From Geitlerinema sp. PCC 7407 (lineage in GTDB: Bacteria; Cyanobacteriota; Cyanobacteriia; PCC-7407): 64,000 nt of DNA. Below, piece after piece: positions 44,887 through 64,000 of this stretch. The stretch spans positions 3,212,501 to 3,276,500 of the forward strand of contig NC_019703.1 of assembly GCF_000317045.1 (NCBI RefSeq). Reading direction: 5' to 3'. Within the stretch, counting starts at the first letter, position 1, and every line of letters begins with the position of its first letter. Under the pieces are notes generated by a model. That model was not told the DNA's origin. It saw nothing but the letters and a program-made list of their open reading frames with translations, and did no database searches. A program made the position numbers and the translations under genes.

Positions 44887-46653
44887 CTAAGAAGCGGCCA
44901 GCTCCGGCGCTTGCTCGGCCACCAGGCTCTGCATCACCTGCCGCATGTCGGCGATCGCCTGGAGCTGGTAGTCGCTGGCTTCTTGGAACTGTCCCAAAAT
45001 CCCGGCGATCGCCTCAGAAGCCTGGCGCAACCCATTGAGGCTGTCCTGGGTCGGCTGCAGCCACTCCTGATACAGGTTGACCTGTCCCCACAGCTCAGCC
45101 ACGGTGCTCCGCTGCGATCGCAGGTTTTCTTCCCACTGCTTGAGCTCGTTGCGCTTGGCGTCTTGCTCTCCCGTTTGCTGGCTGATCATGCCCTGAGCCT
45201 GCTCGATCGCGCCCCGCATCTGAGAGACCTGGCCCTCCAGCTTTTGGAGCACCTCTGCCTGCTGCTGCCGCTGGCTATCGAGCTGGGACAGCACCGGCCC
45301 GAGGTCCACCGTCGGACGCTCCTGGGACGAGTCCACCTGGATTCCCTGACGGCGCTGCAACACCGATTGGTGCTTGGCCAAGACTTCCTGGCGCTCCCGC
45401 AGGTTCCGGCGCTGGCCCACGAGGGTTTCATTCAGCATCTGGTAGCGATCTTGCTCCTCGGCCAGCTCTGTTTCCAGGGCGAGGCGATCGTAGTCATTGG
45501 CGCTCTGAATCTTCTGCTGGAGCGCTTCGATTTCTTCCATCTGTAGGCGCAGCTCTTCTTCCTGGTCATTCACAAAGTGATAGACCTTATCTTGGTCGCG
45601 CTGGAGGTCTTGGACCAGGGATTGCAGCTCATCAACGGGCATCTTGTCGAGGGCTTCCAGGTCAATGCGGGCGCTGACCTGGACATCGTCAGATGACTCA
45701 GCCAGGCGATACATCTGCTGATAGAGATCTTCCTGATTTTGCAGCAGCAGGCTCAGGTTCTGGGCTTCTTCTTGCTTGAGCTGGAGCGTGGTCTGCTGGA
45801 TTTTGACTTCACCGCAAGCTTGGTCCAGGGAGACTTGGGCTTGGTGCCATTCTTGCCAGCGTGTCTCGAGATCCTGGCTCTGGCGATCGACTTCTGCCTG
45901 GAGCTGCTCAGCTTCGCTGCGCTTTTGCTCTAGACGCTGCCAGTGCTGATCGAGGAGGGTCTGCTGACCACTGATCAGGCCAAAGGCTTGATTGACCTGC
46001 TCACGGATCTGGTCGGTGGGAGCGACAGCGCCCGAGATACGGCTCAGGATTTCGTGGAGTTTATTGGCCTGCTCAGCGTCGAGACCCGCCGACTTTTGAA
46101 TGTCTTCCTTGGTCTCTTCTAGGCGGCGCATCTCGCCCCGCAGGTGCTCCCAGGCGCCTTCTAGCTCTTGGCTCTTGCGCTCGATTTCTTCGCGCAGGCG
46201 ATCGGCTTCTTCACGGGCTCCGGCGATTTCCTGGCGCTGCTGCTCTAGCTTTTCAGAGTCTTCTTCGAGGGCTTGAAGCTGCTCGCGCCGCGCTTCCATT
46301 TCCATTTCGCGGCGGTTGAGCTCTTGACTTTGGTAGGTCAAGGACTGCTTCCACTGCTCGATTTCTTCTTCTTGGGTTTTGAACTTCTCCTGCATGCGGG
46401 AGAAGTTTTGCAGGATGCTGACTAGCTGCCGTCCGGCTTCCTGCACCCGTTTGACCTGACGGTTGTTGTTTAGGTCGGCAAGTACTAGAGCCCCAGCGTT
46501 GAAGTTTTTAGCTTCTTCTGCTGCAATGACTTCTTCTCCAGGAACTGCCGTCCAGTTTTGTTCAGAGCGTTGGCAGGCTAGCAACTTTAGTTCTACCTTG
46601 CCGCCTAGGCCAAAGCTCGCTGTGGTTTTTTGTACTTCCGCTAGATACAGCAC
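44887..46653 (-). CDS. hmpF: Pilus motility taxis protein HmpF
   Basis: The 588-residue protein has a short globular N-terminal domain (MLYLAEVQKTTASFGLG to about residue 70) followed by a very long coiled coil rich in Gln, Glu and Leu up to the C-terminus. This matches HmpF, a cyanobacteria-specific cytoplasmic protein needed for type IV pilus motility; in filamentous species it localises to the poles. It is divergent from hmpA, in the same order I recall for the hmp locus of Nostoc punctiforme. It ends at a strong terminator. Confidence 0.9.
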   Translation of the reverse strand: MLYLAEVQKTTASFGLGGKVELKLLACQRSEQNWTAVPGEEVIAAEEAKNFNAGALVLADLNNNRQVKRVQEAGRQLVSILQNFSRMQEKFKTQEEEIEQWKQSLTYQSQELNRREMEMEARREQLQALEEDSEKLEQQRQEIAGAREEADRLREEIERKSQELEGAWEHLRGEMRRLEETKEDIQKSAGLDAEQANKLHEILSRISGAVAPTDQIREQVNQAFGLISGQQTLLDQHWQRLEQKRSEAEQLQAEVDRQSQDLETRWQEWHQAQVSLDQACGEVKIQQTTLQLKQEEAQNLSLLLQNQEDLYQQMYRLAESSDDVQVSARIDLEALDKMPVDELQSLVQDLQRDQDKVYHFVNDQEEELRLQMEEIEALQQKIQSANDYDRLALETELAEEQDRYQMLNETLVGQRRNLRERQEVLAKHQSVLQRRQGIQVDSSQERPTVDLGPVLSQLDSQRQQQAEVLQKLEGQVSQMRGAIEQAQGMISQQTGEQDAKRNELKQWEENLRSQRSTVAELWGQVNLYQEWLQPTQDSLNGLRQASEAIAGILGQFQEASDYQLQAIADMRQVMQSLVAEQAPELAAS

Positions 46654-47094
46654 GCCGATAGTCCTCTTCCGTGTCTATGCCCAGTCCTGCAACAGACTTA
46701 ACCCCCTACAGATTAATCGCCATGGTAAATCAAATCGCAGGGAGAAATGTTTGTGAAAAACGCGAAACACACCAAGACGAGCGATCGCCCCGAAGTTGCG
46801 TCTGCCATGTTATTGAATGCTATCCCGAGATCCTGACCGACGGCCAATGGGTTCTCGATGAAACTCGCCGAAACCCAGTCCAAGGCCAATGGTTGCTACT
46901 ACAGGTTATACCCTGGTTCTGGCGATGGCGTTTCCGGACAGGAATATTAAGATGCGGGACTTCAAGGAGGTTTTACAATCAAGTTAACTTTTAAGTTAAC
47001 GTGTTGGCACGGCTTAGGGCAGACCCTGAGGCGATCGCCGCGAGTGAAGACGGAGAGACGCCCCCGGAGGCCCTTAGGAGAGCATCGGCGCTGC
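46654..47094. other. Divergent promoter region hmpF / hmpA
   Basis: About 440 bp between the two divergent motility units. It contains the inverted repeat at 46983-47000. Codons in frame with hmpA continue to 47044 but the family start is at 47095. No gene supported. Confidence 0.55.
46983..47000. promoter_or_regulatory. GTTAAC inverted repeat upstream of hmpA
   Basis: GTTAACTT (46983-46990) and AAGTTAAC (46993-47000) are perfect inverted copies separated by TT, and each contains the palindrome GTTAAC. The site is 95 bp upstream of the hmpA start. It is a plausible operator for the motility locus; the regulator is unknown. Confidence 0.4.
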
Positions 47095-48369
47095 ATGCAG
47101 GGACATTTAAACGAAATCGATATTCGTAGCATTCTCCAACTCATTGAGCTGGGTCAGCGAACCGGTGAATTGTTTGTGGAGACCTATGTTTCGGCGTCGC
47201 CGTTTGGGGGGTTGCCGAGCGATCGCGCGCGTCCGCCGTCGGAGCACTCTTGGTTCGTTTTCTTTGTCAATGGTCACATCGCCTATGCCACCAGCGGAGA
47301 CGGCAATCTGCTGCGGCTGCGGGACTACCTGCGGCGCTACAAAGTCGATGCGGCCCTCGATAGCGTCTCGATGTCGGCGATCGCCTCCATCAACGCTCCC
47401 GAGTACGGCTATCTGTGGTCCCTCCTAGAAAACCACCTCCTGACTCCCTCCCAAGGACGCAGCATCATCCGCAGCATGGTGCACGAGACGCTGTTTGATC
47501 TGCTCAGCCTGCACCACGGCTCCTTCATTTTTGAAATCAGTCCGCCGCTCACCCCCCAGCTCACCACCCTCGAGATCGCGCCCATCGTCACGGACATCAT
47601 CAAGCAGGTTCAGGCCTGGAAGCAGCTTCATCCCCACATCCAGTCCCCAGACCAGTGTCCGGCGATCGCCAACCCAGAGCAGCTGCGCGAAGCCCTGCCC
47701 ATCACCACCTTCAAAACCGTCGAGCGCTGGATCGACGGCAAGACCTCCATTCGCCAGATGGCCCGCTACCTCAACCGCGACATCCTGACCGTCGCCCGCG
47801 CCGTCTATCCCTACATCCAGCAGGGCCTCGTCCAGCTCGTCTATCCCACCGTCGCCGCCCCGAGCTACGCTAGCCGCGGCCTCAGCACCTGGCCCGAGGC
47901 CCGTCCCCCGCGCATCGTCTGCATCGACGACGGCACCACCATCCGCAAAGCAGTCGAATACATTCTCAACCGTCACGGCTACGAAGCCACCGCCATTGGC
48001 AACCCCCTCAAAGCCCTGAGCCTGGTCTTTCACCTCAAGCCCGACTTGATCCTGTGTGACATCGCCATGCCAGAGCTAGACGGCTACGAAATCTGCGCCA
48101 TGCTGCGCAGCTCCACCGCCTTTCGGCAGACTCCCATCATTATGTTGACGGGCAAGGATGGCTTCATTGACCGCGTCAAAGCCCGGATCGTCGGCGCAAC
48201 GGACTATCTGACCAAGCCCTTTGGCGAGAGTGAGCTGCTGATGCTCGTTGAAAAGTACGTCGGCGTGGGCAATCCTGAGCTGCCAAAACCGGACGTCTTG
48301 CTGGCTGAAGCCCTCGGAGACGAAGTAAAACTTAACATTCACGATCAGGCAGATTCGGTATCATCCTGA
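47095..48369 (+). CDS. hmpA: PatA-type response regulator HmpA (PilG-like)
   Basis: The 424-residue protein has an N-terminal PATAN/DUF4388 domain (starting MQGHLNEIDIRSILQLIEL) of about 250 residues and a C-terminal receiver domain. In the receiver the phospho-acceptor is Asp322 in LILCDIAMPELDG, with IDDG early, the Thr in MLTGKDG and Lys in YLTKPFGE. It should relay phosphate from HmpE to the type IV pilus system. ATG at 47095 matches family members. hmpB follows only after 500 bp, so hmpB-E may have their own promoter. Confidence 0.88.
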   Translation: MQGHLNEIDIRSILQLIELGQRTGELFVETYVSASPFGGLPSDRARPPSEHSWFVFFVNGHIAYATSGDGNLLRLRDYLRRYKVDAALDSVSMSAIASINAPEYGYLWSLLENHLLTPSQGRSIIRSMVHETLFDLLSLHHGSFIFEISPPLTPQLTTLEIAPIVTDIIKQVQAWKQLHPHIQSPDQCPAIANPEQLREALPITTFKTVERWIDGKTSIRQMARYLNRDILTVARAVYPYIQQGLVQLVYPTVAAPSYASRGLSTWPEARPPRIVCIDDGTTIRKAVEYILNRHGYEATAIGNPLKALSLVFHLKPDLILCDIAMPELDGYEICAMLRSSTAFRQTPIIMLTGKDGFIDRVKARIVGATDYLTKPFGESELLMLVEKYVGVGNPELPKPDVLLAEALGDEVKLNIHDQADSVSS

Positions 48370-48872: not shown

Positions 48873-49238
48873 ATGAGCACAGTTCTGGTTGTGGAAGACA
48901 GCGTCACGCAACGGGAAATGATCACCGACCTCCTCAAAGGAAGCGGTCTCAGCGTAGCCGTCGCCACTGATGGTGTCGAAGCCTTGGAACAGGTGCAAAA
49001 GCACTGTCCAGACCTCGTCGTGCTGGATATCGTCATGCCCCGCATGAACGGCTACGAAGTCTGTCGCCGCCTCAAAGCTGACCCCAAGACCCAAAATGTC
49101 CCTATTGTGATGTGCTCCTCCAAGGGCGAAGAATTCGATCGCTACTGGGGCATGAAGCAGGGAGCCGATGCCTACATTGCCAAACCCTTTCAGCCAACCG
49201 AGCTGGTAGGAACCGTTAAGCAACTACTGCGAGGGTAG
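48873..49238 (+). CDS. hmpB: CheY-like response regulator HmpB (PilH-like)
   Basis: This 121-residue protein is a single receiver domain: acidic pair in VVEDSVTQREM, phospho-acceptor Asp52 in VVLDIVMPRMNGYEV, Ser in MCSSKGEE and Lys in YIAKPFQP. It has no output domain, so it works by protein contact, as do PilH/PixH in pilus taxis systems. hmpC follows after 8 bp. Confidence 0.9.
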   Translation: MSTVLVVEDSVTQREMITDLLKGSGLSVAVATDGVEALEQVQKHCPDLVVLDIVMPRMNGYEVCRRLKADPKTQNVPIVMCSSKGEEFDRYWGMKQGADAYIAKPFQPTELVGTVKQLLRG

Positions 49239-49246
49239 AGTCGCCG

Positions 49247-49777
49247 ATGGTCGGGAATCCTGATTTTTTGACTGGCAGAGGCCAAGATCAAGCACCAGAG
49301 TTTCAAGAACTGGAAAGTCCAGAAGGAGAGTTACATCTTCGGTTCTTTGTTCCCTCAGGTAATGAGTTTGCGCTGCCAGCGATCGGCATTCGCGAAGTCA
49401 TCTCCCCAACCCCCGATCGCATTACCCCCATTCCTAATGTCTCACCCCTCCTCTTGGGCACGCTCAATGTGCGGGGGCGGGTAATCTGGGTGGCCGATCT
49501 GGGGCAGTTTTTGGGAGACTCAGCCCCCCTGAACACCGACCGACCTGACATTTCTGTCATTGCGATCGAAGATCAGGACCTCATGATGGGACTCGCCGTC
49601 GATCGCATCCATGAGATGGATTGGCTCGATATCGAAGACATCCAGATGCCTACGAGCGTCCCCGACAGCATGGCTCCATTTTTGCGGGGGGAGTGGGTCA
49701 TCAATCCAGACGCTGATACAGTGCTTCGGCTTTTGGACCAAATCGCAATTTTGCGATCGGCACGGTGGGCAACATGA
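49247..49777 (+). CDS. hmpC: CheW-like adaptor HmpC (PilI-like)
   Basis: A 176-residue CheW-domain protein that links the receptor HmpD to the kinase HmpE. Conserved blocks are FALPAIGIREVISPTP, LLGTLNVRGRVIWVADLG and GLAVDRIHEMDWLDI. It starts 8 bp after hmpB and has a ~30-residue N-terminal extension before the CheW fold. Next gene: hmpD, 200 bp on. Confidence 0.9.
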   Translation: MVGNPDFLTGRGQDQAPEFQELESPEGELHLRFFVPSGNEFALPAIGIREVISPTPDRITPIPNVSPLLLGTLNVRGRVIWVADLGQFLGDSAPLNTDRPDISVIAIEDQDLMMGLAVDRIHEMDWLDIEDIQMPTSVPDSMAPFLRGEWVINPDADTVLRLLDQIAILRSARWAT

Positions 49778-49980: not shown

Positions 49981-52900
49981 ATGGGTTCGAGCATCGATTA
50001 CGCGCAAGAATACCAACAGGCCCAAATGGCCTACATGCAGCAGGACTATGAGACTGCGGCCAGTGTCATTGACCGACTGGTGCAGGACTTTCCCGAGGAT
50101 CCGAGTGCACGCCTGCTGAGGGGGCACATTTACTGCTACGGCTTGCAGCAGTATCAGGTTGCTCAGGAGGAGTACTCAGCGGTGCTGGGGCTGACCTCAG
50201 AGCCAGATTTTATTGACTATGCCAATAGCGGTCTTGCTTACGCCGAACAGTTCGCAGGCAGTGGTGGCGCTGCGGCTGCCTTTGACACCTCTGAGTTCAA
50301 TCTTGCTGCCGAGGGTGACATCGACGCCTACGGGCCGGACGCCTATGGTGTCCCTGACACTAGCAATCTAGAAGAGGCCTACGGCGCCGACGTTGCTGCA
50401 ACGCCAAACGATGCCTTTGCCCAAGCAGACAATGCTTTTGCCGCTGACAGCTTTGGCGCGGAGAGCTGGCAGTCTTTTGAGGATGAGCATCTCGACGAGA
50501 ACTTGTTGGGGGATGCTTCGGACTTTAATTTTGATGATTTTGGCGGATCGGCGGCGGCAGCGGACAACCCCTTTGGCACGATGGGCTCAGAAGGGGCGAT
50601 CGCCCCTTCTGAGCCCGAGACTCCCTTTGACAATCCCTTTGGCCTCGACGCCGATCTGAGTACCGACGAAGCAAATGCTTTTGCAGAAGCCAGCAACCCC
50701 TTCGCCCTAGACGATGCCTTTGGCACCGAGGAGGCCGCTGCTGACAATGAGAGCTTCTTTGCAGATGAGCCTAACTTTGGCGCTGAGGAGGCCGACTACG
50801 GCGCGATCGCCCCAGAGTCCCCGTTCGACACCTCATCCGCCCCAGAGACTCCGGAGGCCCCGGACTATCCGGCTTCCTACAGCCCAGACGCGGGGAGCTA
50901 CGATGACACCTTCGATCCAGGGGACTTTGGCCTCGGCGACGAGGGCAGCGCCGACGACTGGGCCAACGCAGGCAGCACCCTCGAAGACCAAGGCAGCCTA
51001 GAATCCTTCGACTATGGCTACAGCCAAACCGAGGACGAAACGTTTTTCATGGGGGATGCAGGGGCTGACGCAGCCGGGATGGGCAGCGCACCCTACGGCG
51101 GCTTTCAGCCAACCTATGACCAAGACGAGCAGACGTTTATCGCTCCACCCCAGCCTGAGGACGAGGCTGAGTCTTTTGGCGGCTATGACGCCTTTGACGA
51201 CAACGCTTTTAACGACAACGCCTTCGACACGTTCGATGAAGACGCGGCCTATCGCTCGTCCAACGGCGGCGCGCCCGTCCTCTCAGCGATGGATTCCTTT
51301 GACTCCCTCGGTAGCCAGAGCAACGTTGACTTTCTAGACGAATTCGATGAGTTTGACGACCTAGGGGATCTGCCCGACTTCGATTTGTCAGAAAATTCGG
51401 CGGGCTTTACGACCCCCTCGGCTGGCACCAGCTTTGGCATGGGGACCGGGCGCACTGAAGCGGCCACAGATGAGGTGCGCTTCGACGACTTTGCAAGCGG
51501 CCTCGCGGATGACGGCGATCGCTCGGTGATAGGCGAAGATGAGCTGTTCAGCATCTCCGGCACCTCCGAGCATCTGCCCAGCTTCACCCAGTCCGACAGC
51601 CAGATCAAAGAACCCGCCGTCTCCATCGAGCAGGGCTGGCTTGCATTCTTCGAAAATGCACCCTTGGCTGCCAAGCAAATATATACAGCGATCGCTGCCG
51701 GGTTCGTTTCGGCTGCCGCCGTAGCCGTGACAGTCCATATCTCTGCAAACAACTCTCCTCCATGGACCAAGCTTGCCATGGTCTTTGCACCCGGTCTGGC
51801 CAGCGGCGGCACGACCTATGTGCTGAGCCAGGCAATGGCTCGGCAGGTCAAGCGAACCACCGACGATCTACAATCGCAGTTCCAGTCCGTGTCCCAAGGC
51901 AATTTGGGAGCGCGGGCAACGGTCTTTTCGGAAGATGAGTTCGGTCAGCTGGCCTCCGGCTTCAACCACATGGCCCGCGTGATCTTCACCACCACCAGCG
52001 AAGCGCAGCGCAAGGCCGAAGAGCAAGAGCAGGCCAAAGAAGACCTCCAGCGCCAAGTGATTCGTCTGCTGGACGACGTGGAAGGGGCGGCCCGAGGAGA
52101 CTTGACTGTCCAGGCAGAGGTCACGGCAGACGTTTTGGGCGCCGTTGCTGACTCCTTCAACTTGACGATTCAGAACCTGCGGGAAATCGTGCAGCAGGTG
52201 AAGACCGCCGCTCGCCAGGTGAGCAAGAGCGCTACGGACAACGAGATTTTCGCCCGGGGCCTGTCCTCTGACGCCCTCCGGCAAGCGGAGGAGTTGGCCG
52301 TCACGCTGAACTCGGTGCAGGTGATGACGGACTCGATTCAGCGGGTGGCCGAGAGCGCCCGGGAAGCAGAAGAGGTGGCCCGCTCAGCATCGTCGACCGC
52401 TCTGAAAGGGGGCGAGGCAGTGGAGCGCACCGTGGCGGGTATTTTGACGATTCGCGAAACGGTGGCGGAAACCACCCGGAAGGTGAAGCGCCTCGCTGAG
52501 TCGTCCCAGGAAATCTCGAAGATTGTGGCGCTGATTTCTCAGATTGCGTCTCGAACCAACCTCCTCGCCCTCAACGCCAGTATTGAGGCGGCGCGGGCGG
52601 GAGAAGCGGGCCGAGGCTTTGCGATCGTGGCCGATGAGGTGCGACAGCTGGCAGACCGGGCCGCCAAGGCGTCGAAGGAGATTGAGCAAATCGTGCTCCA
52701 GATCCAGAGCGAGACGGGGTCCGTGATGACGGCGATGGAAGAAGGCACCCAGCAGGTGATCGAGGGAACAAAGCTGGCAGAACAAGCCAAGCGATCCCTC
52801 GAAGACATCATTCAAGTGTCCAACCGCATTGACATTCTGGTGCGCTCCATCACGGCGGATACGGTGGAGCAAACCGAAACCTCTCGAGCCGTGGCCCAGG

Positions 52901-53055
52901 TGATGCAATCGGTGGAGTTGACGGCGCAGGAAACGTCCCAGGAAGCTCAGCGAGTTTCGGGCTCTCTGCAAAGTCTGGTGGGGGTTGCGCGGGACCTGCT
53001 GACCTCGGTGGAACGGTTTAAAGTTGAGGCGATCGACTCCTCCCAATCGTCTTGA
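49981..53055 (+). CDS. hmpD: Methyl-accepting chemotaxis protein HmpD (PilJ-like) with a TPR-like N-terminus and acidic linker
   Basis: The 1,024-residue receptor has a TPR-like N-terminal domain (residues 1-90, with [18 protein letters not shown]), an acidic, Gly/Ala/Phe-rich low-complexity segment (about 90-545) with many DNPFG, FDDFG and NAFA motifs, two transmembrane helices (about 562-583 and 595-618), a HAMP region, and a methyl-accepting signalling domain. The hairpin tip is intact ([20 protein letters not shown], about residues 870-890). It lacks a classical periplasmic sensor between the helices, so most of its mass is cytoplasmic. Role: signal input for pilus motility, probably phototaxis or surface sensing. 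The acidic segment parallels that of HmpE. Confidence 0.9.
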
Positions 53056-53284: not shown

Positions 53285-56200
53285 ATGCAGTCAGAACAAC
53301 AACAGCGGATCATGGGGTACTTCATCGAGGAGGCAAGGGACCACCTCAATACCCTGGAGCAAGGTTTGCTGAACCTGCAAAGCACCCTGGAAGATCCCGA
53401 GATGCTCAATGAGCTCTTCCGCGCGGCTCACTCGGTGAAGGGTGGGGCTGCCATGCTCGGCATTGACAGCATCCAGCAAACTTCCCACCGCTTGGAAGAC
53501 TGTTTCAAGATTTTGAAAGAGCACCCCGTCAAGGTTGACCAAGACATTGAGTCACTTTTGCTGAGCTGCCTGGACACGCTGCAGGAGCTGCTGGGGCAGT
53601 TGCAAACTCCGTTTGGGCTGACGGAGGAGAAGGCTCGCGAGATTATGGCTGGAGTAGAGCCTGTATTTGCGGAGCTGGGCAGCCGTCTCACCCAGATGGT
53701 TGCTGCAACGGGAGGGGTGATCACGCCAGAGACCCAAGAGACCTGGATTGCGCCCGAGGCTGCAGCGTCTGCCAGTGCTCCTGTCCAAGCCGAAGAAGAA
53801 AGTGCGCTACAGCTCATTTTCCAAAGCGATGTGCCCCGCCAGCTTCGAGATATGCTGCAGCTGTTTAAGCAGGCAGATACGCTGGAGCGGCGACAGCAGC
53901 TGCAAGAGATTTGTAGCGGCCTCAAGCGCACGGGGGAACAGTTTGATCTGCGCAACTGGTGTGATTTGCTAGAGTCGGCTCGGCTGGCGATCGCCAGTCC
54001 CGAAAACACGTATCACACCCTGGCCCCGATTGTGATTCGGGAGATTAAGCAGGGCCAGGAACTGGTGCTGGCGGGCCGGAGTGCCGACATTGCGGTGAGT
54101 CCCGCCCTGCAAGAGCTGCTGCCAGTGACGGCTGTGACGGGTGAGCTGAGCCTAGATGCGATGTTTGCCGAATCGCCATCCGGAGAGCTCGACTTCTCGG
54201 CGATCGCCGACAGCTCGACTAACCAAGCTCCAGCAGCTGTGTCGGCGTCGGATTTGGACTTCCACAAGGCGACGGGCGATCGCCCCGGCCCCGAAGTCGG
54301 CATGGCCGAGCTCAATTCCCTGGCCGACCTTTTCGAGGGAGACGTGCCAGATCTCGACATCACCTGGGAGCAAGAAGAGATTCTGGGCAGCACCGCCGAC
54401 GAGATTCTCAGCTCCCTGGACCTCGACGCAGCGAGCGACTTCTCCGATGACTTTGCCGATCTGCTGTTTGAGGAATCTACCGCGTCTAGCAGCAGCGCTG
54501 AAGACGATCTTTCAGGATTTTTGCAGGCGGCGGAGCAGCGCGAGGAAACAGCCGCGATCGCCGACCTTGACTTTGATCTAGGTGACGACTCCGCTGGCCT
54601 CTTTGACGATCTGCTCGAGCCAGTAACGGTCGAACCCCCTAGCGATCTGAGCCAGCCGTCGGGAGATCTGGGCGACCTGTTTGCCGAAATTGACGCCGTT
54701 GATCTTGAGGCTGAAACCCCGTCAGCGGTCAGCCAGCCGGCTCCTGAGCTGGCGGCCCTCGGTTCGCTCTTCGGGGAAATGCCAGTGGACGATGAGGAGC
54801 TGATGACAGACCTCAACGAGGATTCGTCCAGCCCCTTTGATGAAGCGGAAGACCTGTTACAAGACGACTTTGGCGCCTCATTTGAGGATGGGTTGGGCGA
54901 CCTGGGTCTAGACGAAGAGCTGGAGGGCCTTGATCTGTTGACGGAGGCCCAAAGCGGTGACGCTGACAAAGTAGCGGAGTCTGAACTGGATTTTTCGGCG
55001 GCCCTGCTGGAGGAACCTGGCGAAAGCACGACCGCCGATGAGGATTTCCTGGACCTAGGTCTGGAAGAAACAGCGGCGATCGCCTCACCAGAAGACGACT
55101 TGGGCAACCTCTTTGGCAGCGGGCTGTCTCAGGAGCGGACCGACCAACTCGGCGCCGCCGAAAGCAGCGAGCTTGCCAATTTGTTCGGCGGATCGGCTGG
55201 CGAGAGCGAGCTTACGGACAATCTTTTTGACGGCGATGCTGAGGCCGGTGATGCCTTTGCTGAGATGTCGCTCGACGCTTTTGCTGACTCAGCCGAGCCA
55301 GCGCCAGCAGCGCTTTCAGAAGTCGACGAAACAGAAGCAGCCTCAGCCTCCGAGGACGATTTCTCAGGGCTAGACTGGGATGCTGCCGAACTCGATCTGG
55401 CGCCAGAAAGCTCAGCAGCGGAGGCAGAGGAAGCAGAAGACTTCGCAGATCTAGCAGGCTTAACTGACGACACTCCAGTCGACGGCACCGGCCTCGAGCT
55501 GACAGGCCCAGAGCTTGCCTGGGACGCGATCGAGAGCGAGAACGCCGCAGCCGATGCCGCCATCGATCAGGCCCTTGGTCTAGAGTCCTTCGATCTCGAA
55601 GAAGATGCATGGGATACGCCTCCCGAGGAGGCCACAGCCCCCGAAGCAGCCTTGTTCTCCGAGACCAGCGCTCCTGAGGCCGATGTCTTTGGCGAATCCT
55701 CCGAGGCGATCGCCGCCGATGACTGGGAGCTGAGCCCTGACGACACCCAAGAGCCAGCCCTCGGCCTCGAAGCGGATCTTTTTGAGCAGTCGACCGGAGC
55801 GAGTACAGCCTCCGAGACTGGTACTGGCAACGATTGGGAGACCTTCTTTGATAGCGATCAAAAAGGCGATCGCTCCCCAAGCACCAGCAACGAGATTGAG
55901 GACTTCTTCGGCACCGACATCAGCGAAACCAGCCTAGAAGCGTCTGCTCTGACAGATTTCGCATCTACCGAGAATTTGCTCAGTGAGGAGCCAGCGCAAC
56001 CAGCGGCAGAAGCCGCGATCGAGCTTGAGGAAGACCTGTGGGCCGATCAAGCAGCGCAGACCGAGGCTGCGGCGCTGTTAGACGACAGCTTCGCGGAGGC
56101 ACCAGACCTTGATCTAGGTTTGGCAGATCTAGCAGGTGAGCCAGCGCCCGAAACCGCAGCGTCTCTGGACATGGAGGGCGCAACGGAGGCGATCGCAGAT

Positions 56201-59200
56201 GACTTTGATCTAGGCTTTGCCGCCGAAGAGCTTACGGCTCCAGAAGCTACAGCTGGCGAGGAAGATCTTGGGCTTGATAGTCTCGAAGAACCCGAACTCG
56301 GCCTCGATCTGGCCGACACGAGCGAGGAAGCCGGGGCTTTGGACTTTGACCTCGGCCTAGAAGCGCCGATCGCAGAAACTCCTGAAGCCGCCGATGATCT
56401 GGATTTCGGACTAGCAGCAGACGCGTCAGACTCTCTGGAATTCGCAGCGGCCGAAGCTACCGATGAGCTCGACTTTGGCCTAGACCTGACTGAGGAACCC
56501 GAATCTCTGGGATTCGAGGCCGCAGAAGCGGATGTGCTCGACTTTGACCTAGAGAGAGGAGAGCCTGCTGAGCTAAGCTTCGAGACCGAGGCAGCCACTG
56601 ACGACTTGGGCTTTGATCTGAGCGCCGCCGATGAATTCGACCTGGGCTTCGAGGCCGCCGAGGACAGCGGTGAGCTCGGACTGGACCTGGGCGATACCGA
56701 TGAATTCGACTTGGGCCTCGAGACCGCTGAAGAAACCTCAGAGCTTGACTTTGACCTCGCCGCTGAAGCCACCGACGACTTAGGCCTTGATTTCGGTGAG
56801 ACTGAAGCGGCAACGGATGAGCTCGACTTTGGGCTGGAGGAGACCGAAGCGGCCTCGGAGCTCAGCTTTGAACCGGAAGGCTCGGAAGACCTGGGCTTTG
56901 AGCTGGGTGCTGGCGAATCGGAAGACCTGGGTTTCGATCTGGGTGCTGGTGAGGAAGCTGGAGACCTGGACTTTGACCTGGGTCTGGAAGAGCCAGTTGC
57001 AGAAACCGCTGAAGCTGCCGATGAGCTGGATTTCGGGCTGGATCTGGCCGAGGAATCAGAGACCTTGGACTTTGGGGCAGCCGAAACCACCGATGAGCTG
57101 GACTTTGGCCTAGACCTGACCGAGGAGCCAGAATCCCTGGCATTTGACGCAGCCGAGGAGAGCGATGAGTTTGACCTTGGGTTCGAGCTCGGAGGCGAGG
57201 CAGAATCTTTAGACTTTGCAGCTGCTGAAACCACTGATGAGCTGGACTTCGGGCTGGATCTGGCCGAGGAGCCTGGTGAGCTGAGCTTCGAGACTGAGGC
57301 AGCCACTGACGACTTGGGCTTTGACCTGGGCGACACCGATGAATTCGACCTAGGCCTTGAGACCGCTGAGGAAACCTCAGAGCTCGACTTTGACCTCGCC
57401 GCCGAAGCCACGGACGACCTAGGCCTTGATTTCGGTGAGACTGAGGCAGCAGCGGATGAGCTCGACTTTGGGCTGGAGGAGACCGAAGCGACATCAGAGC
57501 TTAGCTTTGAGCCGGAAGGTTCGGAAGACCTGGGCTTCGATCTGGGTGCTGGTGAGGAAGCGGGGGATCTGGACTTTGACCTGGGTCTGGAAGAGCCCGT
57601 TGCGGAAACCGCTGAAGCTGCCGATGAGCTGGATTTCGGGCTGGATCTGGCCGAGGAGTCGGAGACCTTGGACTTTGGGGCAGCCGAAACCACCGATGAG
57701 CTGGACTTTGGCCTAGACCTGACCGAGGAGCCAGAATCCCTGGCATTTGACGCAGCCGAGGAGAGCGATGAGTTTGACCTTGGGTTCGAGCTCGGAGGCG
57801 AAGCAGAATCTTTAGACTTTGCATCTGCTGAAACCACCGATGAGCTCGACTTTGGCCTAGACCTGACCGAGGAGCCTGGTGAGCTGAGCTTCGAGACCGA
57901 GGCAGCCACTGACGACTTGGGCTTTGACCTGGGCGCCGCCGATGAATTCGACCTGGGCTTCGAGACAGCCGAGGACAGCGGTGAGCTCGGACTGGACCTG
58001 GGCGACACTGATGAATTCGACCTAGGCCTCGAGACCACTGAGGAAACCTCAGAGCTTGACTTTGACCTCGCCGCTGAAGCCACCGACGACTTAGGCCTTG
58101 ATTTCGGTGAGACTGAGGCAGCCGCGGATGAGCTCGACTTTGGGCTGGAGGAGACCGAAGCGGCCTCGGAACTCAGCTTTGATCTGGAAGGCTCAGAGAG
58201 CTTGAGCTTCGATCTGGGTGCTGGCGAATCGGAAGACCTGGGTTTCGATCTGGGTGCTGGTGAGGAAGCTGGAGACTTGGACTTTGACCTGGGTCTGGAA
58301 GAGCCAGTTGCAGAAACCGCTGAAGCTGCCGATGAGCTGGATTTCGGGCTGGATCTGGCCGAGGAGTCAGAGGCCTTGGACTTTGGGGCAGCCGAAACCA
58401 CCGATGAGCTGGACTTTGGCCTAGACCTGACCGAGGAGCCAGAATCCCTGGCATTTGACGCAGCCGAGGAGAGCGATGAGTTTGACCTTGGGTTCGAGCT
58501 CGGAGGCGAGGCAGAATCTCTAGACTTTGCAGCTGCTGAAACCACCGATGAGCTGGACTTCGGGCTGGATCTGGCCGAGGAGCCTGCTGAGCCGAGCTTC
58601 GAGACTGAGGCAGCCGCTGACGACTTGGGCTTTGACCTAGGCGCTGAGGAATCCTTGAGCCTTGATGATGATTTGGGCGATCTCTTCGGCACAGAGGCTT
58701 CTGAGGTCGGAGAGGGCGAGTCTTCGGCCATGTTTGACTTCGAGCTGGGCGAAGAGTCTGCCGCTACGGCCGATGATTTTGGCCTGGACGGGGCGGTGAC
58801 ATCGGATGGTTTGATTTTTGGCATGGATGAAGGCGATGCCGATTTGACAGAAAGCCTATTTGGCGCCGGGGAGACAGATACCTTTGAGGGGGATCTGTTC
58901 GGCCTAGAGTCGGCTGAGATGGGCGGGATTGAGACAGATCTGAGTTTTGATGACGATCTGCTGGCGATCGCCGATGAAGTTCCCGCTTTCCTCGCAGACG
59001 ACACAGGGGCGATCGCCGTCACCGAGACCCTCGCCCCGGAGGAAGCCCGCGAGCTCGAGTCTCTGCTGGCGGAAGAGTCCAGCTTGCCCCTCGAAACCGG
59101 CGATCGCCAAGTTTTTGATGAGCTGGCCGCCCTTCTAGACGACGGGACGATCGCAGTTCCGGCGATCGCAGCGCCCCACGTCACCCAGATCGACATCGAA

Positions 59201-61273
59201 AGCGACATCGACAACGAATTCGCCGACCTCGAGAAACTCCTAGAGGACGCCGACAACACCCTCGGCCCCTCCACCAAAGCCGCTCGCGGCCCCGCGCCGA
59301 CCCTCAGCCGTCGACCCCGCGGCCTGGTCGAGCAGACCATGCGCGTCCCCGTCAAGCACCTCGACAACCTCAACAACCTGGTCGGGGAACTGGTGGTCAA
59401 CCGCAACAGCCTCGAGCAAGACCAAGAGCGACTGCGCCAGTTCCTCGACAACCTGCTCTACCAAGTGCAGCAGCTCAGCGACGTGGGCCAGCGGATGCGT
59501 GACCTCTACGAGCGATCGCTCCTCGAGAGCTCCCTGCTCTCCAGCCGCCGGACCCACCAGATCGCCCCGGGCAGCCACAAAAAAGGAGACTCCAACGCCT
59601 TCCACGCCACCGGCGAAAACTTTGACGCCCTGGAGATGGACCGATTCACCTCCTTCCACACCCTCTCCCAGGAAATGATCGAGCTGATCGTCCGGGTACG
59701 GGAGGCCTCCTCTGACATCGAGTACATCGTCGACGAGACCGACCAGGTCACCCGCTCCTTCCGCCAAGTCACCACCCAGCTTCAGGAAGGACTCAACCGT
59801 TCTCGAATGGTGCCCTTTGCTCAGATCGCCGACCGGCTGCCCCGAGCGGTGCGAGACATCGCCATGAAGTGTGGCAAACAGGCAGAACTCGTCATCGAAG
59901 GGCGCGACACCCTCATCGACAAGATGATCCTAGAGCAGCTCTACGATCCGATGACCCACCTGGTCAACAACGCGATCACCCACGGCATCGAGGCTCCGGA
60001 TGTCCGGAAAGCCTCTGGCAAAGCGCCTACTGGCCGCATCACCGTGCGCGCGTTCCACCAAGGGAACCAAACCGTGATTTCGGTCTCCGACGATGGGGCC
60101 GGCATCCCCGTCGACCGGGTAAAAGCCAAAGCCGTCGAGCGGGGCTTGGTCACCCCCGTCGAAGCCAAGCAAATGTCTCGCCTCGACGTCTACGACCTGC
60201 TGTTCCATCCCGGCTTCAGCATTCGTGACAAAGCCGATGACTTCGCCGGTCGCGGCATCGGGATGGACGTTGTGCGCACCAGTCTCAACGAGATTCGCGG
60301 CGCCATCAACACCGACTCCACCCTGGGACGTGGCACCAACTTCACGATCCGTCTACCGCTGACCCTCAGCATTTCCAAGGCGCTGTGCTGCATCAGCAAC
60401 CACGCCCGCATCGCCTTCCCGATGGACGGGGTCGAGGACATGCTGGACCTGCCCAAGGACCGCATCCAGACCAACGCCGAAGGTCAGCCTTGCATCCTCT
60501 GGCGCGACACGATGCTGCCTTTCCGGCCGCTGACAGAGCTGCTGCGCCACAACCGGTTCCTGGGTCGCGGTAGCGTCTACGGCGGTCACCAAGACGATGA
60601 CATCATCTCCATCGTGGTGCTGCGCAGTGCGGGAACCTTCATTGCGCTCCAGGTCGACCAGGTCTTGGGCGAGCAGGAAATCGTTATCAAGCAGCTAGAA
60701 GGCCCCGTGCCCAAACCCGCTGGCGTGGCTGGGGCAACGGTGCTCGGGGATGGCCGAATCATGCCGATCGCGGACGTCCTAGAGCTGATCGATCTAGCGC
60801 TGGGACGAGCCCGCCGCGATGTGGGCGGCGCGCTGTGGGAAGAAGGCGATCAGGTGCCAGTGGAGCCCCCAGTGGTCAAGACCGAGCCGACGGTACTCAT
60901 CGTGGACGACTCCATCACGGTGCGCGAGCTGCTGTCGATGACCTTCAACAAGTCTGGGTACCGCGTGGAGCAGGCCCGCGACGGTCAAGAGGCTTGGGAG
61001 AAACTGCGATCGGGCTTGCCTTGCGACTTGGTGTTCTGCGACATCGAGATGCCTCGCATGGACGGCCTAGAGCTGCTGTCGCGGATGCAGAAAGATCCTT
61101 CGCTCAATCGCCTCCCCATCGCGATGCTGACGTCCCGAGGCGCGGATCGTCACCGTCAGATGGCGGTGCAGCTCGGCGCTCGCGGCTACTTCACGAAGCC
61201 CTACCTGGAGGAGGCGCTGCTAGACGCAGCCCAGCGAATGCTCAAAGGGGAAGTGCTCGTCGGTAGCAAGTAA
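53285..61273 (+). CDS. hmpE: Giant hybrid histidine kinase HmpE (CheA/PilL-like) with a repeat-expanded acidic linker
   Basis: The predicted product is 2,662 residues. Order: an HPt domain (about 1-110; phospho-acceptor His49 in AAHSVKGGA), a helical domain (about 175-285), an acidic low-complexity linker (about 290-2010), then the CheA core. The core has a dimerisation helix starting VEQTMRVPVKHLDNL, ATPase N-box LVNNAITHGIE, G boxes SDDGAGIPVD and GRGIGMDVVR, a CheW-like domain, and a C-terminal receiver with Asp2586 in VFCDIEMPRMDG. All catalytic parts look intact. ATG at 53285 has GGGGAAGGGA upstream; an earlier in-frame start at 53153 lacks homology. Related kinases are usually about half this length or less. 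Last gene of the hmp locus, with its own terminator. Confidence 0.9.
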   Translation: MQSEQQQRIMGYFIEEARDHLNTLEQGLLNLQSTLEDPEMLNELFRAAHSVKGGAAMLGIDSIQQTSHRLEDCFKILKEHPVKVDQDIESLLLSCLDTLQELLGQLQTPFGLTEEKAREIMAGVEPVFAELGSRLTQMVAATGGVITPETQETWIAPEAAASASAPVQAEEESALQLIFQSDVPRQLRDMLQLFKQADTLERRQQLQEICSGLKRTGEQFDLRNWCDLLESARLAIASPENTYHTLAPIVIREIKQGQELVLAGRSADIAVSPALQELLPVTAVTGELSLDAMFAESPSGELDFSAIADSSTNQAPAAVSASDLDFHKATGDRPGPEVGMAELNSLADLFEGDVPDLDITWEQEEILGSTADEILSSLDLDAASDFSDDFADLLFEESTASSSSAEDDLSGFLQAAEQREETAAIADLDFDLGDDSAGLFDDLLEPVTVEPPSDLSQPSGDLGDLFAEIDAVDLEAETPSAVSQPAPELAALGSLFGEMPVDDEELMTDLNEDSSSPFDEAEDLLQDDFGASFEDGLGDLGLDEELEGLDLLTEAQSGDADKVAESELDFSAALLEEPGESTTADEDFLDLGLEETAAIASPEDDLGNLFGSGLSQERTDQLGAAESSELANLFGGSAGESELTDNLFDGDAEAGDAFAEMSLDAFADSAEPAPAALSEVDETEAASASEDDFSGLDWDAAELDLAPESSAAEAEEAEDFADLAGLTDDTPVDGTGLELTGPELAWDAIESENAAADAAIDQALGLESFDLEEDAWDTPPEEATAPEAALFSETSAPEADVFGESSEAIAADDWELSPDDTQEPALGLEADLFEQSTGASTASETGTGNDWETFFDSDQKGDRSPSTSNEIEDFFGTDISETSLEASALTDFASTENLLSEEPAQPAAEAAIELEEDLWADQAAQTEAAALLDDSFAEAPDLDLGLADLAGEPAPETAASLDMEGATEAIADDFDLGFAAEELTAPEATAGEEDLGLDSLEEPELGLDLADTSEEAGALDFDLGLEAPIAETPEAADDLDFGLAADASDSLEFAAAEATDELDFGLDLTEEPESLGFEAAEADVLDFDLERGEPAELSFETEAATDDLGFDLSAADEFDLGFEAAEDSGELGLDLGDTDEFDLGLETAEETSELDFDLAAEATDDLGLDFGETEAATDELDFGLEETEAASELSFEPEGSEDLGFELGAGESEDLGFDLGAGEEAGDLDFDLGLEEPVAETAEAADELDFGLDLAEESETLDFGAAETTDELDFGLDLTEEPESLAFDAAEESDEFDLGFELGGEAESLDFAAAETTDELDFGLDLAEEPGELSFETEAATDDLGFDLGDTDEFDLGLETAEETSELDFDLAAEATDDLGLDFGETEAAADELDFGLEETEATSELSFEPEGSEDLGFDLGAGEEAGDLDFDLGLEEPVAETAEAADELDFGLDLAEESETLDFGAAETTDELDFGLDLTEEPESLAFDAAEESDEFDLGFELGGEAESLDFASAETTDELDFGLDLTEEPGELSFETEAATDDLGFDLGAADEFDLGFETAEDSGELGLDLGDTDEFDLGLETTEETSELDFDLAAEATDDLGLDFGETEAAADELDFGLEETEAASELSFDLEGSESLSFDLGAGESEDLGFDLGAGEEAGDLDFDLGLEEPVAETAEAADELDFGLDLAEESEALDFGAAETTDELDFGLDLTEEPESLAFDAAEESDEFDLGFELGGEAESLDFAAAETTDELDFGLDLAEEPAEPSFETEAAADDLGFDLGAEESLSLDDDLGDLFGTEASEVGEGESSAMFDFELGEESAATADDFGLDGAVTSDGLIFGMDEGDADLTESLFGAGETDTFEGDLFGLESAEMGGIETDLSFDDDLLAIADEVPAFLADDTGAIAVTETLAPEEARELESLLAEESSLPLETGDRQVFDELAALLDDGTIAVPAIAAPHVTQIDIESDIDNEFADLEKLLEDADNTLGPSTKAARGPAPTLSRRPRGLVEQTMRVPVKHLDNLNNLVGELVVNRNSLEQDQERLRQFLDNLLYQVQQLSDVGQRMRDLYERSLLESSLLSSRRTHQIAPGSHKKGDSNAFHATGENFDALEMDRFTSFHTLSQEMIELIVRVREASSDIEYIVDETDQVTRSFRQVTTQLQEGLNRSRMVPFAQIADRLPRAVRDIAMKCGKQAELVIEGRDTLIDKMILEQLYDPMTHLVNNAITHGIEAPDVRKASGKAPTGRITVRAFHQGNQTVISVSDDGAGIPVDRVKAKAVERGLVTPVEAKQMSRLDVYDLLFHPGFSIRDKADDFAGRGIGMDVVRTSLNEIRGAINTDSTLGRGTNFTIRLPLTLSISKALCCISNHARIAFPMDGVEDMLDLPKDRIQTNAEGQPCILWRDTMLPFRPLTELLRHNRFLGRGSVYGGHQDDDIISIVVLRSAGTFIALQVDQVLGEQEIVIKQLEGPVPKPAGVAGATVLGDGRIMPIADVLELIDLALGRARRDVGGALWEEGDQVPVEPPVVKTEPTVLIVDDSITVRELLSMTFNKSGYRVEQARDGQEAWEKLRSGLPCDLVFCDIEMPRMDGLELLSRMQKDPSLNRLPIAMLTSRGADRHRQMAVQLGARGYFTKPYLEEALLDAAQRMLKGEVLVGSK
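56330..58640 (+). repeat. hmpE: In-frame tandem duplications encoding the HmpE acidic linker
   Basis: Landmark GAAG(A/C)GCC sites in equivalent positions lie at 56360, 56987, 57590 and 58298, giving unit lengths of 627, 603 and 708 bp, each a multiple of three. Units 2 and 3 are nearly identical in DNA; the first is diverged, and the last is cut short near 58640. The protein repeats use ELDFGLDL, DDLGFDLG and DEFDLGLE motifs, so a finer ~12-17 residue period lies inside each large unit. The pattern indicates growth by unequal recombination under selection for reading frame. Confidence 0.88.
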
Positions 61274-61385: not shown

Positions 61386-62867
61386 CTAACTTCCGACAAA
61401 TTCCTCCTCTTCCTTTGACTTGAGTTCAGTGAACTTGAACATGTCAGGATCAAGCTCCAAAATTTCCACCGATCGCGTACGAACGCCAATTTTGTGCTCA
61501 ATCAGCAAGTCAATTAATTTCTCGCCATTGATCAGGGTAATGGGAGCAGCACCTCGCTCTACGGCTGCTGCCGCCGTTCCCTTCGAGAAATCCCCCACCG
61601 TGATAATAGTCCCTCGAACCGCGTCAAATCGGTGCAGAGAGCCCCGCAGAGCATCCAGCACAGGACGCTGAATATTGCCTTTTTGGCGCTTGGCTTGAAC
61701 TACCTCCCGCACCGAGGTAATACCCATTTCAATATCAGCTTTTACATCGATTCCTTTATCATTTGAGGGCGCTGTAACCATGACATTTTGATAGTTCATC
61801 GCCTCCAAAAGCTGCTTGATGAGATGCTCAAAGGCGATCGGATCCATCGCTTCCAAATGGTCTCGAATTTTGGCGCGAATGCTGACACTTTGTTGCTTAA
61901 CAAGGGTCAAAATTTCTTGCAACTCGTCAGGACTATCGGTATCTTCAGAGCCCCCCGTCCGCCGCAAGTAGGCTAGGCCCGCATCCGTGATGCTGTAGGT
62001 TGTGCCAGTTCTGGAGAGAAATCCTCGCTCCAGCAGATTTCGCAGACGACACCACAGGGTGTCCTTGATGGTGCCATCGGTCCCAAAGCGGGAATAACGC
62101 TGCAAATACTCGGCCCACTCCGGCACGAAGTCACTGTGTCGTCCAGTCCCCTTTTCGGCCACTATCGTCAGAATCTTCAGCAAGCCTTCATGCTCATCAA
62201 TGTAGGCGACTGCGTCCCCTTGCTCCTGAGTCACAAAGTCATTGCCACGATCAGTCAGAAGCATCGGACCTGCGGCATTCTCGGCCAGCAGGCCATACTG
62301 ACAGGCCAAGAGCCAGTGACCATAAACATGCCGAGGGTTGACCTTGCCATCGGTCTTTTTCCAGATGGCTTCTGCCAGTTCGCGATCGCTCCCTTGGAGG
62401 CGCTGGGGAATCCAAACATCCGGATCGGTCCAGTCCACAGGAGCTTGGGGACTACCCCACAGCGCAGATAGCGTAGAGCGCAACCCCGTAATCTGAGCCC
62501 TCAGGTGTCCCTGCCAAATCGGCAACACCAAACGGACTTCTGAATAAATTGGAAACAGTGGTGTTCGAACGCGTTGATTTTCGCTGTTGGTTGCGCTGGG
62601 CTTTTGATTGGGCATAAACGGATCTAATCCCCAGATGCGCAGACCAAAGACCCCTGGCCTGATGCGAACAAAGGGGCTTTGTTCACCTTTTTGCTTGATG
62701 TCCACGGCCAACCGAGCGTTGAGCGTGGCGTCAGGGGTTTTGCCATCGGTTTGCAGGAAGCCTTGCTCTAGCGATCGCCGCGTGATCTCTTGATAGTGCA
62801 ATGGCTCTCCAGCAGATTGCAGAATCCTGAAAGCTGCATCAGCAAAGGACATCGGATCAGAGGTCAT
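61386..62867 (-). CDS. HARE-HTH / Mrr-type restriction endonuclease-like protein
   Basis: With the ATG at 62867 the product has 493 residues. The N-terminus (about 1-85) matches a HARE-HTH (HB1/ASXL) DNA-binding domain: SFADAAFRILQSAGEPLHYQEI, then FVRIRPGVFGLR. The middle has a winged-helix-like segment around TTYSITDAGLAYLRRTGG. The C-terminal ~130 residues form an Mrr-cat nuclease: FEHLIKQLLEAMNYQ, APSNDKGIDVKADI with the catalytic Asp, and VVQAKRQKGNI with the QxK motif. Mrr enzymes cut modified DNA. No methylase is adjacent, in keeping with a type IV system. A TTG at 62918 would add 17 residues. Confidence 0.82.
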   Translation of the reverse strand: MTSDPMSFADAAFRILQSAGEPLHYQEITRRSLEQGFLQTDGKTPDATLNARLAVDIKQKGEQSPFVRIRPGVFGLRIWGLDPFMPNQKPSATNSENQRVRTPLFPIYSEVRLVLPIWQGHLRAQITGLRSTLSALWGSPQAPVDWTDPDVWIPQRLQGSDRELAEAIWKKTDGKVNPRHVYGHWLLACQYGLLAENAAGPMLLTDRGNDFVTQEQGDAVAYIDEHEGLLKILTIVAEKGTGRHSDFVPEWAEYLQRYSRFGTDGTIKDTLWCRLRNLLERGFLSRTGTTYSITDAGLAYLRRTGGSEDTDSPDELQEILTLVKQQSVSIRAKIRDHLEAMDPIAFEHLIKQLLEAMNYQNVMVTAPSNDKGIDVKADIEMGITSVREVVQAKRQKGNIQRPVLDALRGSLHRFDAVRGTIITVGDFSKGTAAAAVERGAAPITLINGEKLIDLLIEHKIGVRTRSVEILELDPDMFKFTELKSKEEEEFVGS

Positions 62868-63064
62868 GGCACTTAGCGATCGACGAGAGAACGATTTCAG
62901 CTCATTCCTGGTGGCCAAAAGCGATACCTGAAAAATGCACGCAGGGGTGAGCAGTTCTAGAGTTCCCGAGAAAATTGATAAAGCTTTAGACGAATAATTA
63001 TTGTTTGAGCTCAGCAGACTTTTGGCGCGGCTGAGCTCAAGGCTGAAAAGTTTAAAAACAAAAC

Positions 63065-63150: not shown

Positions 63151-63223
63151 TGGAGGTAAGCGGATTCGAACCGCTGACCCCTTCAATGCCATTGAAGTGC
63201 TCTACCAACTGAGCTATACCCCC
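63151..63223 (-). tRNA. tRNA-Ala (anticodon GGC)
   Basis: A 73 nt cloverleaf on the minus strand: acceptor stem GGGGGTA / TACCTCC with the G3-U70 pair that identifies alanine tRNA, D-arm TAGCTCAGTTGGTAGAGC, anticodon stem CTTCA/TGAAG with loop ATGGCAT (GGC), and T-arm AGCGGTTCGAATCCGCT. The discriminator is A. The 3' CCA is not encoded. Confidence 0.97.
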
Positions 63224-63390
63224 GTGACGCGAAATCTATAATGCCTTGAAGGATCGGGGTTCGTCAAGGGGAATCGGAATTTTGTTGGGAAAAGAGGGCC
63301 AAGGAGGTCGGCGATCGCGCTAGAGTTTTGATCGGGCCTTCCGGGTCCACCTGTGTTTGAATGTTTTGCTGGTCAGCCTCTAGGGTTCTC

Positions 63391-64000
63391 ATGACAGACT
63401 TTTCGGCTTCTCCCCTCAACTCGTCCATTTCCCTCAGCCCCGAAGAAACCGAAGACCTCGTGCGTCAGCTCCGGCGCAAAGAAGGAAACTGGGTGGGCTG
63501 GGGAGAGGCATGCCAAAAGCTGCTGAAATCCGGCTTCAATCCTCAGTCGCTGTTCGAAGAGACGGGCTTCGAGCCGGTGCAGCAGAACCAAGTGATCGTC
63601 GGGGCGCAGGTGTTTGCGTCGATCACGAGCGGGAACGTGGAGGAGGCTGTCCGGGAGTACTTCGAGCGCAAGGGCAGCGACATCCTCTATGAGTTCCGGA
63701 TTTTGAATAATGCCGAGCGCCAAGCGGCAGCGGCGTTTGCCTACGAGCGCAAGATGGACATGGACGAAGCCCATGATCTGGCTAAGGCGATGCGAGATTA
63801 TTCGCGCACCCGCAATGTGCCCGAGGCGTTCAAAAACCATCCGGGAGACGCGATCGCCTATGAGTGCTGGCGTCTAGCCCGCCAAAAGGACGATCTCCAA
63901 GAGCGATCGCGCCTGATCGCCCGCGGCTTGCAGTTCGTCCACAGCACCGAGGCTCGCCAATACCTCGAAAAGCTGCTCACCGACTTCACAGTGGTGGCCC
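63391..64000 (+). CDS. raf1: Rubisco accumulation factor 1, 5' part
   Basis: The first 203 codons of Raf1, a dimeric chaperone that brings Rubisco large subunits together. LRRKEGNWVGWGEACQKL, FEETGFEPVQQNQVIVGAQV and YEFRILNNAERQAAAAFAYE are typical of the N-terminal alpha domain of cyanobacterial Raf1. ATG at 63391 (MTDFSASPLN) is the first clear start. The gene runs off the window, so the C-terminal beta domain is not seen. Confidence 0.92.
   Translation, partial: MTDFSASPLNSSISLSPEETEDLVRQLRRKEGNWVGWGEACQKLLKSGFNPQSLFEETGFEPVQQNQVIVGAQVFASITSGNVEEAVREYFERKGSDILYEFRILNNAERQAAAAFAYERKMDMDEAHDLAKAMRDYSRTRNVPEAFKNHPGDAIAYECWRLARQKDDLQERSRLIARGLQFVHSTEARQYLEKLLTDFTVVA

Follow-up and report, generated by a model that had tools for sequence, protein, structure and literature searches.

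We have analyzed a window of 64,000 nucleotides (the whole stretch of DNA examined) from Geitlerinema sp. PCC 7407, whose genome is one contig of 4.68 Mb. The window contains a chemosensory operon in which genes for a PATAN regulator, CheY, CheW, an MCP and CheA follow in the order of hmpA-E, the cheA frame being the last gene. The genes are as follows.

44887-46653, minus strand: HmpF candidate of 588 aa, coiled-coil-like, divergent from hmpA, assigned by position
47044-48369, plus strand: PATAN (DUF4388) response regulator of HmpA type, by Pfam
48873-49238, plus strand: CheY of HmpB type
49247-49777, plus strand: CheW of HmpC type, by Pfam
49981-53055, plus strand: MCP of HmpD type, 1,024 aa, by Pfam HAMP and MCPsignal
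53285-61273, plus strand: CheA of hmpE type, 2,662 aa, by open frame, domains and orthologues

This is a type IV pilus chemosensory operon of the Hmp/Tax3 type, with a CheA that carries a C-terminal receiver. HmpE/PilL orthologues act in the control of type IV pili and motility (PMC12288463). The real start of the PATAN regulator probably lies a few codons into the frame, at MQGHL. The divergent gene is taken as the HmpF candidate because it has the look of a coiled coil and occupies the same position relative to hmpA as hmpF, which lies beside hmpA in the Npun_R5959/F5960-F5964 gene order of Nostoc punctiforme and also in Leptolyngbya boryana (PMC10581220). Two further CheAs are encoded in the same genome (open frames of 818 and 840 codons), and these have neither an acidic segment nor the M1 motif described below. 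Directly downstream of hmpE lies a gene for an Mrr-type restriction endonuclease with a HARE-HTH domain (61386-62918, minus strand), and beyond this are a tRNA gene (63151-63223, minus strand) and the start of the gene for Raf1, the Rubisco accumulation factor (63361-63999, plus strand).

The hmpE frame is translated into 2,662 amino acids without a stop, and its start at 53285 fits the conserved N terminus of the orthologues, MxxEQQQRIMGYFIEEA. Along the protein we distinguish the following features.

53309-53587, plus strand: HPt or P1 domain (aa 9-101); Pfam PF01627 with E 1.9e-17, AlphaFold pLDDT >90, Foldseek match to CheA P1 structures
53786-54118, plus strand: second helical bundle, d2 (aa 168-278); AlphaFold pLDDT >90 over most of it, kept in most orthologues
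54140-59317, plus strand: acidic linker (aa ~286-2011) of about 1,725 aa; composition, charge-hydropathy and AlphaFold
54287-54382, plus strand: N-terminal island GPEVGMAELNSLADLFEGDVPDLDITWEQEEI (aa 335-366); pattern in the linkers of 53/67 relatives and in the consensus of 49 orthologues
56291-58744, plus strand: array of ELDFGLDL-type repeats (aa ~1003-1820), whose short units lie inside copies at offsets of about 200-437 aa
56558-59047, plus strand: 830 residues (aa 1092-1921) devoid of Lys, Arg and His; composition
59216-59260, plus strand: M1 motif EFADLEKLLEDADNT (aa 1978-1992), a predicted helix; motif counts, AlphaFold and alignment
59330-61231, plus strand: kinase core and receiver (P3 59330-59500, P4 59948-60364, P5/CheW 60383-60793, receiver 60893-61231)

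Pfam places H-kinase_dim at residues 2016-2072, HATPase_c at 2222-2360, CheW at 2367-2503 and Response_reg at 2537-2649; together with AlphaFold and Foldseek this defines a CheA-type histidine kinase in which P1 (HPt), P3, P4 and P5 are all present, in order. AlphaFold, supplied with an alignment of orthologues, predicts two confident helical bundles at residues 1-150 and 168-278, mostly with pLDDT above 90. The first of these resembles CheA P1 structures (Foldseek); the second, d2, matched no Pfam family and may be a degenerate HPt. Pfam gave no match in HmpE to the P2 domain that docks response regulators, and d2 and the disordered linker fill the interval. P2 is present in E. coli CheA, and is not essential to the CheA family. 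A previous reading of this DNA from its letters alone (the sequence-only reading) had described a 2,662-residue HmpE-type CheA of an Hmp-like operon, with its HPt and kinase core complete and far apart. The open frame, the gene order and the Pfam domains, with Hpt at 9-101 and the core beginning at aa 2016, all agree with this.

The linker is markedly acidic. Its core (aa 279-1964) contains 32% D+E and 0.6% K+R, with a net charge of about -534. The acidic segment noticed in the sequence-only reading is thus real, but the length then given, about 1,800 residues, was slightly high because residues 168-278 after the HPt form the folded d2. Charge-hydropathy analysis puts every part of the linker on the disordered side. 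AlphaFold modelling covered the start of the linker and the last 1,022 residues of the protein, so that most of the 1,725 residues are judged by composition only. Confidence falls to 40-65 from about residue 285, and the repeat stretch 1641-1893 has pLDDT values of about 30-45 with hardly any secondary structure. Near the end of the linker three short helices are predicted (1919-1933, 1942-1951 and 1978-1992), and the canonical P3-P4-P5 and receiver follow. Prediction therefore supports an intrinsically disordered linker, and the earlier statement that it has no predicted fold is borne out by charge-hydropathy and by the AlphaFold models of the parts sampled. A calcium-binding beta-roll (RTX-like), suggested by the alternation L-D-F-G-L, was rejected as a likely fold, as pLDDT was about 31, no strands were predicted and Pfam found nothing there. 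A DUF2999 match in HmpE scored 22.4 bits, under the cut-off of 25, and was treated as compositional. An open frame of 1,134 codons runs antisense to the linker (56047-59451, minus strand); it has no Pfam match, and we treat it as a probable side effect of acidic codon usage on the sense strand.

Ionic strength, divalent cations or polyamines might alter the size of a chain that bears more than 500 negative charges, and the kinase might be tuned in this way. The extreme net charge would suit such a polyelectrolyte sensor, and Synechocystis mutants of the orthologous kinase form no biofilm in response to salt (PMC7656254). That phenotype is explained equally by loss of signalling, however, and nothing ties the linker to it. 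We regard a sensor of this kind as very improbable.

Orthologues of HmpE were found in 117 of 136 genomes in a search of the class, those without one coming mostly from one family of small genomes. Their open frames range from 425 to 2,721 codons (median 1,798), the lowest value being the broken frame of L144 and some other short lengths being due to contig ends. The sequence-only reading had suggested that HmpE length be compared across related strains; this comparison makes the Geitlerinema frame the longest of the 117, followed by frames of 2,698, 2,567, 2,488 and 2,483 codons, and shows that linkers are common to nearly all relatives. In 67 full-length relatives, Geitlerinema included, the linker has 531-1,758 aa (median 928), with 22-32% D/E and 0.6-4.3% K/R. 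An acidic linker is present in most of the wider class sample, with an overall range of 0 to 1,758 aa. It has 115-150 aa in the distant orthologues L145, L146 and L148, and three further distant orthologues (L131, L132 and L147) lack both linker and M1, and d2 could not be detected in them. The latter three are possible ancestral or reduced forms.

The net charge of 85 linkers is -0.256 per residue (s.d. 0.025), and long runs free of K and R recur in relatives (848, 796, 721 and 711 aa). Longer linkers carry more net negative charge per residue (Spearman +0.48, without phylogenetic correction). From one species to another, no similarity can be detected over most of the linker. It is the composition of the linker that is conserved, and not its sequence.

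Regular ELDFGLDL-type motifs had been noted from the beginning. They are real and far above chance, but they are specific to this lineage, and it is other motifs that are kept throughout the family. The core of the short unit is [DE][LF][DG][FL][DG][LF]; the alternating pattern [LF]x[FL]x[LF] occurs 68 times, where shuffles of equal composition give 5.9, and there are 13 copies of DELDFGL. Long repeats are also seen in the DNA, of 960 nt at 90% and 1,704 nt at 76% identity. The differences between copies are mostly synonymous, with dN/dS of 0.18-0.45, and such an excess fits a translated and constrained frame. Since gene conversion or codon bias could lower the ratios, they are supportive and not proof; they suggest copies that are old enough to be told apart and under purifying selection at the level of protein.

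Repeats of up to 1.7 kb could have been mis-collapsed or expanded in assembly, and it might be asked whether the frame in fact represents several genes. Yet the copies differ by 10-24% in their DNA, with the synonymous excess just described, and there is no in-frame stop. Moreover, the genome is a single contig, and independent assemblies give similar linkers in the four next-longest frames. An assembly error is unlikely, and we consider it extremely improbable that the linker is an artefact of assembly or frame.

Internal repetition is found in 23/67 linkers, and in none of their shuffles. The amplified unit is MDDMFGEDLSATPAE in Trichocoleus FACHB-40, DELDLDLDSLLDSETE in Leptolyngbya FACHB-36, LEDNFFAEEAIA in Scytolyngbya and DLGFNLDAEETE in FACHB-471. 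On a tree of the kinase core the label 'repeat-rich' changes about 14 times, and its clustering is no tighter than that of shuffled labels (203/500 as low). Given the differences between units and the scatter of the label, it is not the repeat sequence that is conserved, but rather an acidic background with short L/F motifs. The relatives have amplified other acidic-hydrophobic units, and have done so independently.

These observations bear on whether the linker is an inert spacer, that is, an acidic disordered segment whose length has drifted through slippage in replication and unequal recombination, and which has been kept as soluble and harmless. Such drift would produce lengths from 0 to 1,758 aa and the changing repeat label, and the dissimilarity of most of the sequence between species would suit it equally well. 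It does not sit easily with the narrow composition across the 85 linkers, the recurrence of K/R-free runs, the dN/dS values below 0.5 between copies, or the class-wide conservation of the terminal motif M1 (see below). An inert spacer is in our view unlikely.

The repeats might alternatively act as stickers in an acidic spacer, leading HmpE to phase-separate at the cell poles. Regular hydrophobic motifs in a disordered chain would be in keeping with this, as would the amplification of other acidic-hydrophobic units by relatives, and CheA, a dimer, belongs to receptor arrays. With a net charge of -0.26 to -0.37 per residue and almost no K or R, however, the chain should repel itself. Increased negative charge made the condensates of PopZ more fluid, and the PopZ linker is dispensable for condensation (PMC9512792); the rise of charge per residue with length in the HmpE family is also opposite to PopZ. 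Condensate formation thus seems improbable.

Two short islands are conserved within the linker. The N-terminal island, near the HPt side, has the consensus GPEVGxAELNSLADLFEG and is present in 53/67 linkers. In shuffle tests on the non-repetitive linkers F.DL was enriched 6.4-fold, and DL..L, DLF and L..LF also stood out. There are 184 occurrences of the pattern F.[DE]L..[LF][LF] where 3.3 would be expected; they come from 65/67 linkers and lie mostly no more than 200 aa from the kinase. M1, DEFxDLExLLxDA, is the last copy of this pattern; its F, L and L are nearly invariant across 49 aligned orthologues, and AlphaFold predicts it to be helical in an otherwise mostly structureless linker. It lies mostly 35-45 aa ahead of the kinase core, for linkers of 115 to 1,758 aa. 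When a profile of M1 was searched against the Geitlerinema genome, HmpE was the sole strong match (E 2.7e-8, the next being 0.96), and the strong matches in six other genomes were all HmpE, with one weaker exception (E 0.003 in G022). The profile had no convincing match in the PDB (best E 0.46). M1 is missing or undetectable in L129, L136, L137, L143 and L152, all of which have d2. M1 and d2 as a fixed binding pair is not supported as a rule, as their co-occurrence is incomplete across the orthologues.

In most orthologues the linker lies between the HPt and the kinase, and P1 and P2 of E. coli CheA are likewise carried on disordered linkers (PMC10653900). It might then be a flexible tether that determines how far the HPt reaches, and at what effective concentration it is met by the kinase core and response regulators. 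The sequence-only reading had favored a role in the local concentration of the HPt at the kinase, but this is weakened by two relatives in which the protein is split and a linker of 341-358 aa with its motifs is nevertheless kept. In L135 (genome G036) a 282-codon HPt+d2 frame is followed, after 99 nt, by a kinase frame that opens with about 341-358 aa of acidic linker. In L149 (G064) the kinase frame opens with an acidic linker that is 358 aa long and has M1 at its end, and HPt+d2 form a 309-codon frame about 950 kb away. The count of clean splits comprises these two genomes; it leaves out L045, L059, L083, L087 and L157 (apparent frameshifts or broken frames in draft MAGs), the broken kinase frame of L144 (G128), L152 (G138), and L129 (G008), which has its HPt in another frame and d2 still in the kinase frame.

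Synechocystis also has a split kinase that works, PilL-N/PilL-C (Hik36/Hik43) (PMC7656254). In two-hybrid analysis, Hik43 lacking its catalytic, CheW and receiver domains still binds Hik36 (the HPt half) and Rre6 (a PATAN regulator), and removal of the N-terminal part of Hik43 abolished both interactions, linker and P3 being treated as one unit in this test (PMC7656254). That kinase halves with a detached HPt still carry a linker indicates that tethering of the HPt is not the linker's only role. The range of lengths is, in addition, too wide for a tuned tether, and we judge that a tether by itself is a distinctly improbable explanation.

The MCP of the operon has an acidic region of its own (aa 86-555; 50236-51645, plus strand), kept at 299-470 aa in 57 sequences including that of Geitlerinema. 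Comparison of relatives reveals an island within it.

51319-51408, plus strand: near-invariant DEFDDL island in the MCP acidic region

NPF tripeptides are about seven times as frequent in the MCP acidic region as in shuffles (38 compared with 5.6).

The reading that we favor is that the HmpE linker is a multivalent docking and scaffolding region, to which we give a probability of roughly 0.55. A scaffold is more likely than a mere tether because nearly all relatives keep a shorter, differently spelled linker with the same small docking-like motifs. The acidic region, predicted to be disordered, is a family-wide feature of the Hmp/Tax3-type CheA of cyanobacteria, and it sits where E. coli CheA has its P2, with P1 on one side and P3 on the other. 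In favor of docking we count the Synechocystis two-hybrid interactions, the near-constant distance of M1 from the kinase core, the linker kept by kinase halves that have lost the HPt, the lack of such a segment in the other two CheAs, the island in the MCP and the purifying selection on the repeat copies. The region may scaffold a polar complex. The two conserved motifs, GPEVGxAELNSLADLF and the helical DEFxDLExLLxDA, would bind defined partners, for which we infer as candidates the PATAN regulator, HmpF, parts of the pilus motor or the N-terminal half of HmpE itself. The acidic, K/R-free bulk would keep both motifs exposed together with many weak L/F motifs, set the distances between partners and prevent the assembly from coming out of solution. 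Duplication of the ELDFGLDL unit in this lineage has given rise to the longest linker of those sampled. A scaffolding role would not be universal, because M1 is undetectable in five d2-bearing orthologues and the linker is absent from three. As a tentative extension, the acidic regions of HmpD and HmpE, each with a DEFxDL-type island, might together form a polar hub in the cyanobacterial chemosensory array that takes on the task of proteobacterial HubP/FimV by recruiting one client common to both regions, for instance HmpF, the PATAN regulator or the pilus motors.

The linker bears on a question of cyanobacterial motility, namely by what means Hmp positions HmpF and switches on pili at a single pole. 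A class-wide acidic region with two short motifs in the kinase, and a matching region in the receptor, provide concrete targets for mutation, including a motif of 15 residues. Nature has already lengthened the linker, shortened it, split it from the HPt and deleted it, and the span of 0 to about 1,760 residues in orthologues offers a natural series in which to follow the evolution of an acidic disordered region in composition and not in sequence. In the open-access literature searched we found no description of the acidic linker, its motifs, its retention after the HPt has been split off, or a cyanobacterial CheA with a disordered linker.

Both the protein itself and its operon are of kinds already known. 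HmpE shares with PilL-C (TaxAY3, Hik43) and other HmpE proteins the operon order, the domain order P1 + P3-P4-P5-REC, an orthologous core and a neighboring HmpF candidate; the Geitlerinema protein differs from them in having the longest open frame in the sample of 117 genomes and an ELDFGLDL array of its own. HubP and FimV of Vibrio, Shewanella and Pseudomonas, like HmpE, have a large unstructured acidic cytoplasmic region. The imperfect acidic repeats of HubP vary widely in number, length and sequence between species, even close relatives, and HubP/FimV are tied to the chemotaxis array and polar placement (PMC12918733). HmpE has the HubP-like trait of a long acidic disordered region with repeats, but this sits inside a kinase, and Pfam found no LysM-like, transmembrane or C-terminal FimV/TPR domain in HmpE. 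HmpE is not a member of the HubP/FimV family, and the likeness would be one of functional analogy only. PopZ of Caulobacter is another polar protein with a conserved acidic disordered linker, in which charge and length are kept in preference to sequence (PMC9512792). That linker has 78 aa, is proline-rich and conserved in length, and its charge fraction falls with length where that of the HmpE family rises. E. coli CheA has disordered linkers between P1, P2 and P3 (PMC10653900); compared with it, HmpE has no P2, and has instead short motifs in a linker that is many times longer.
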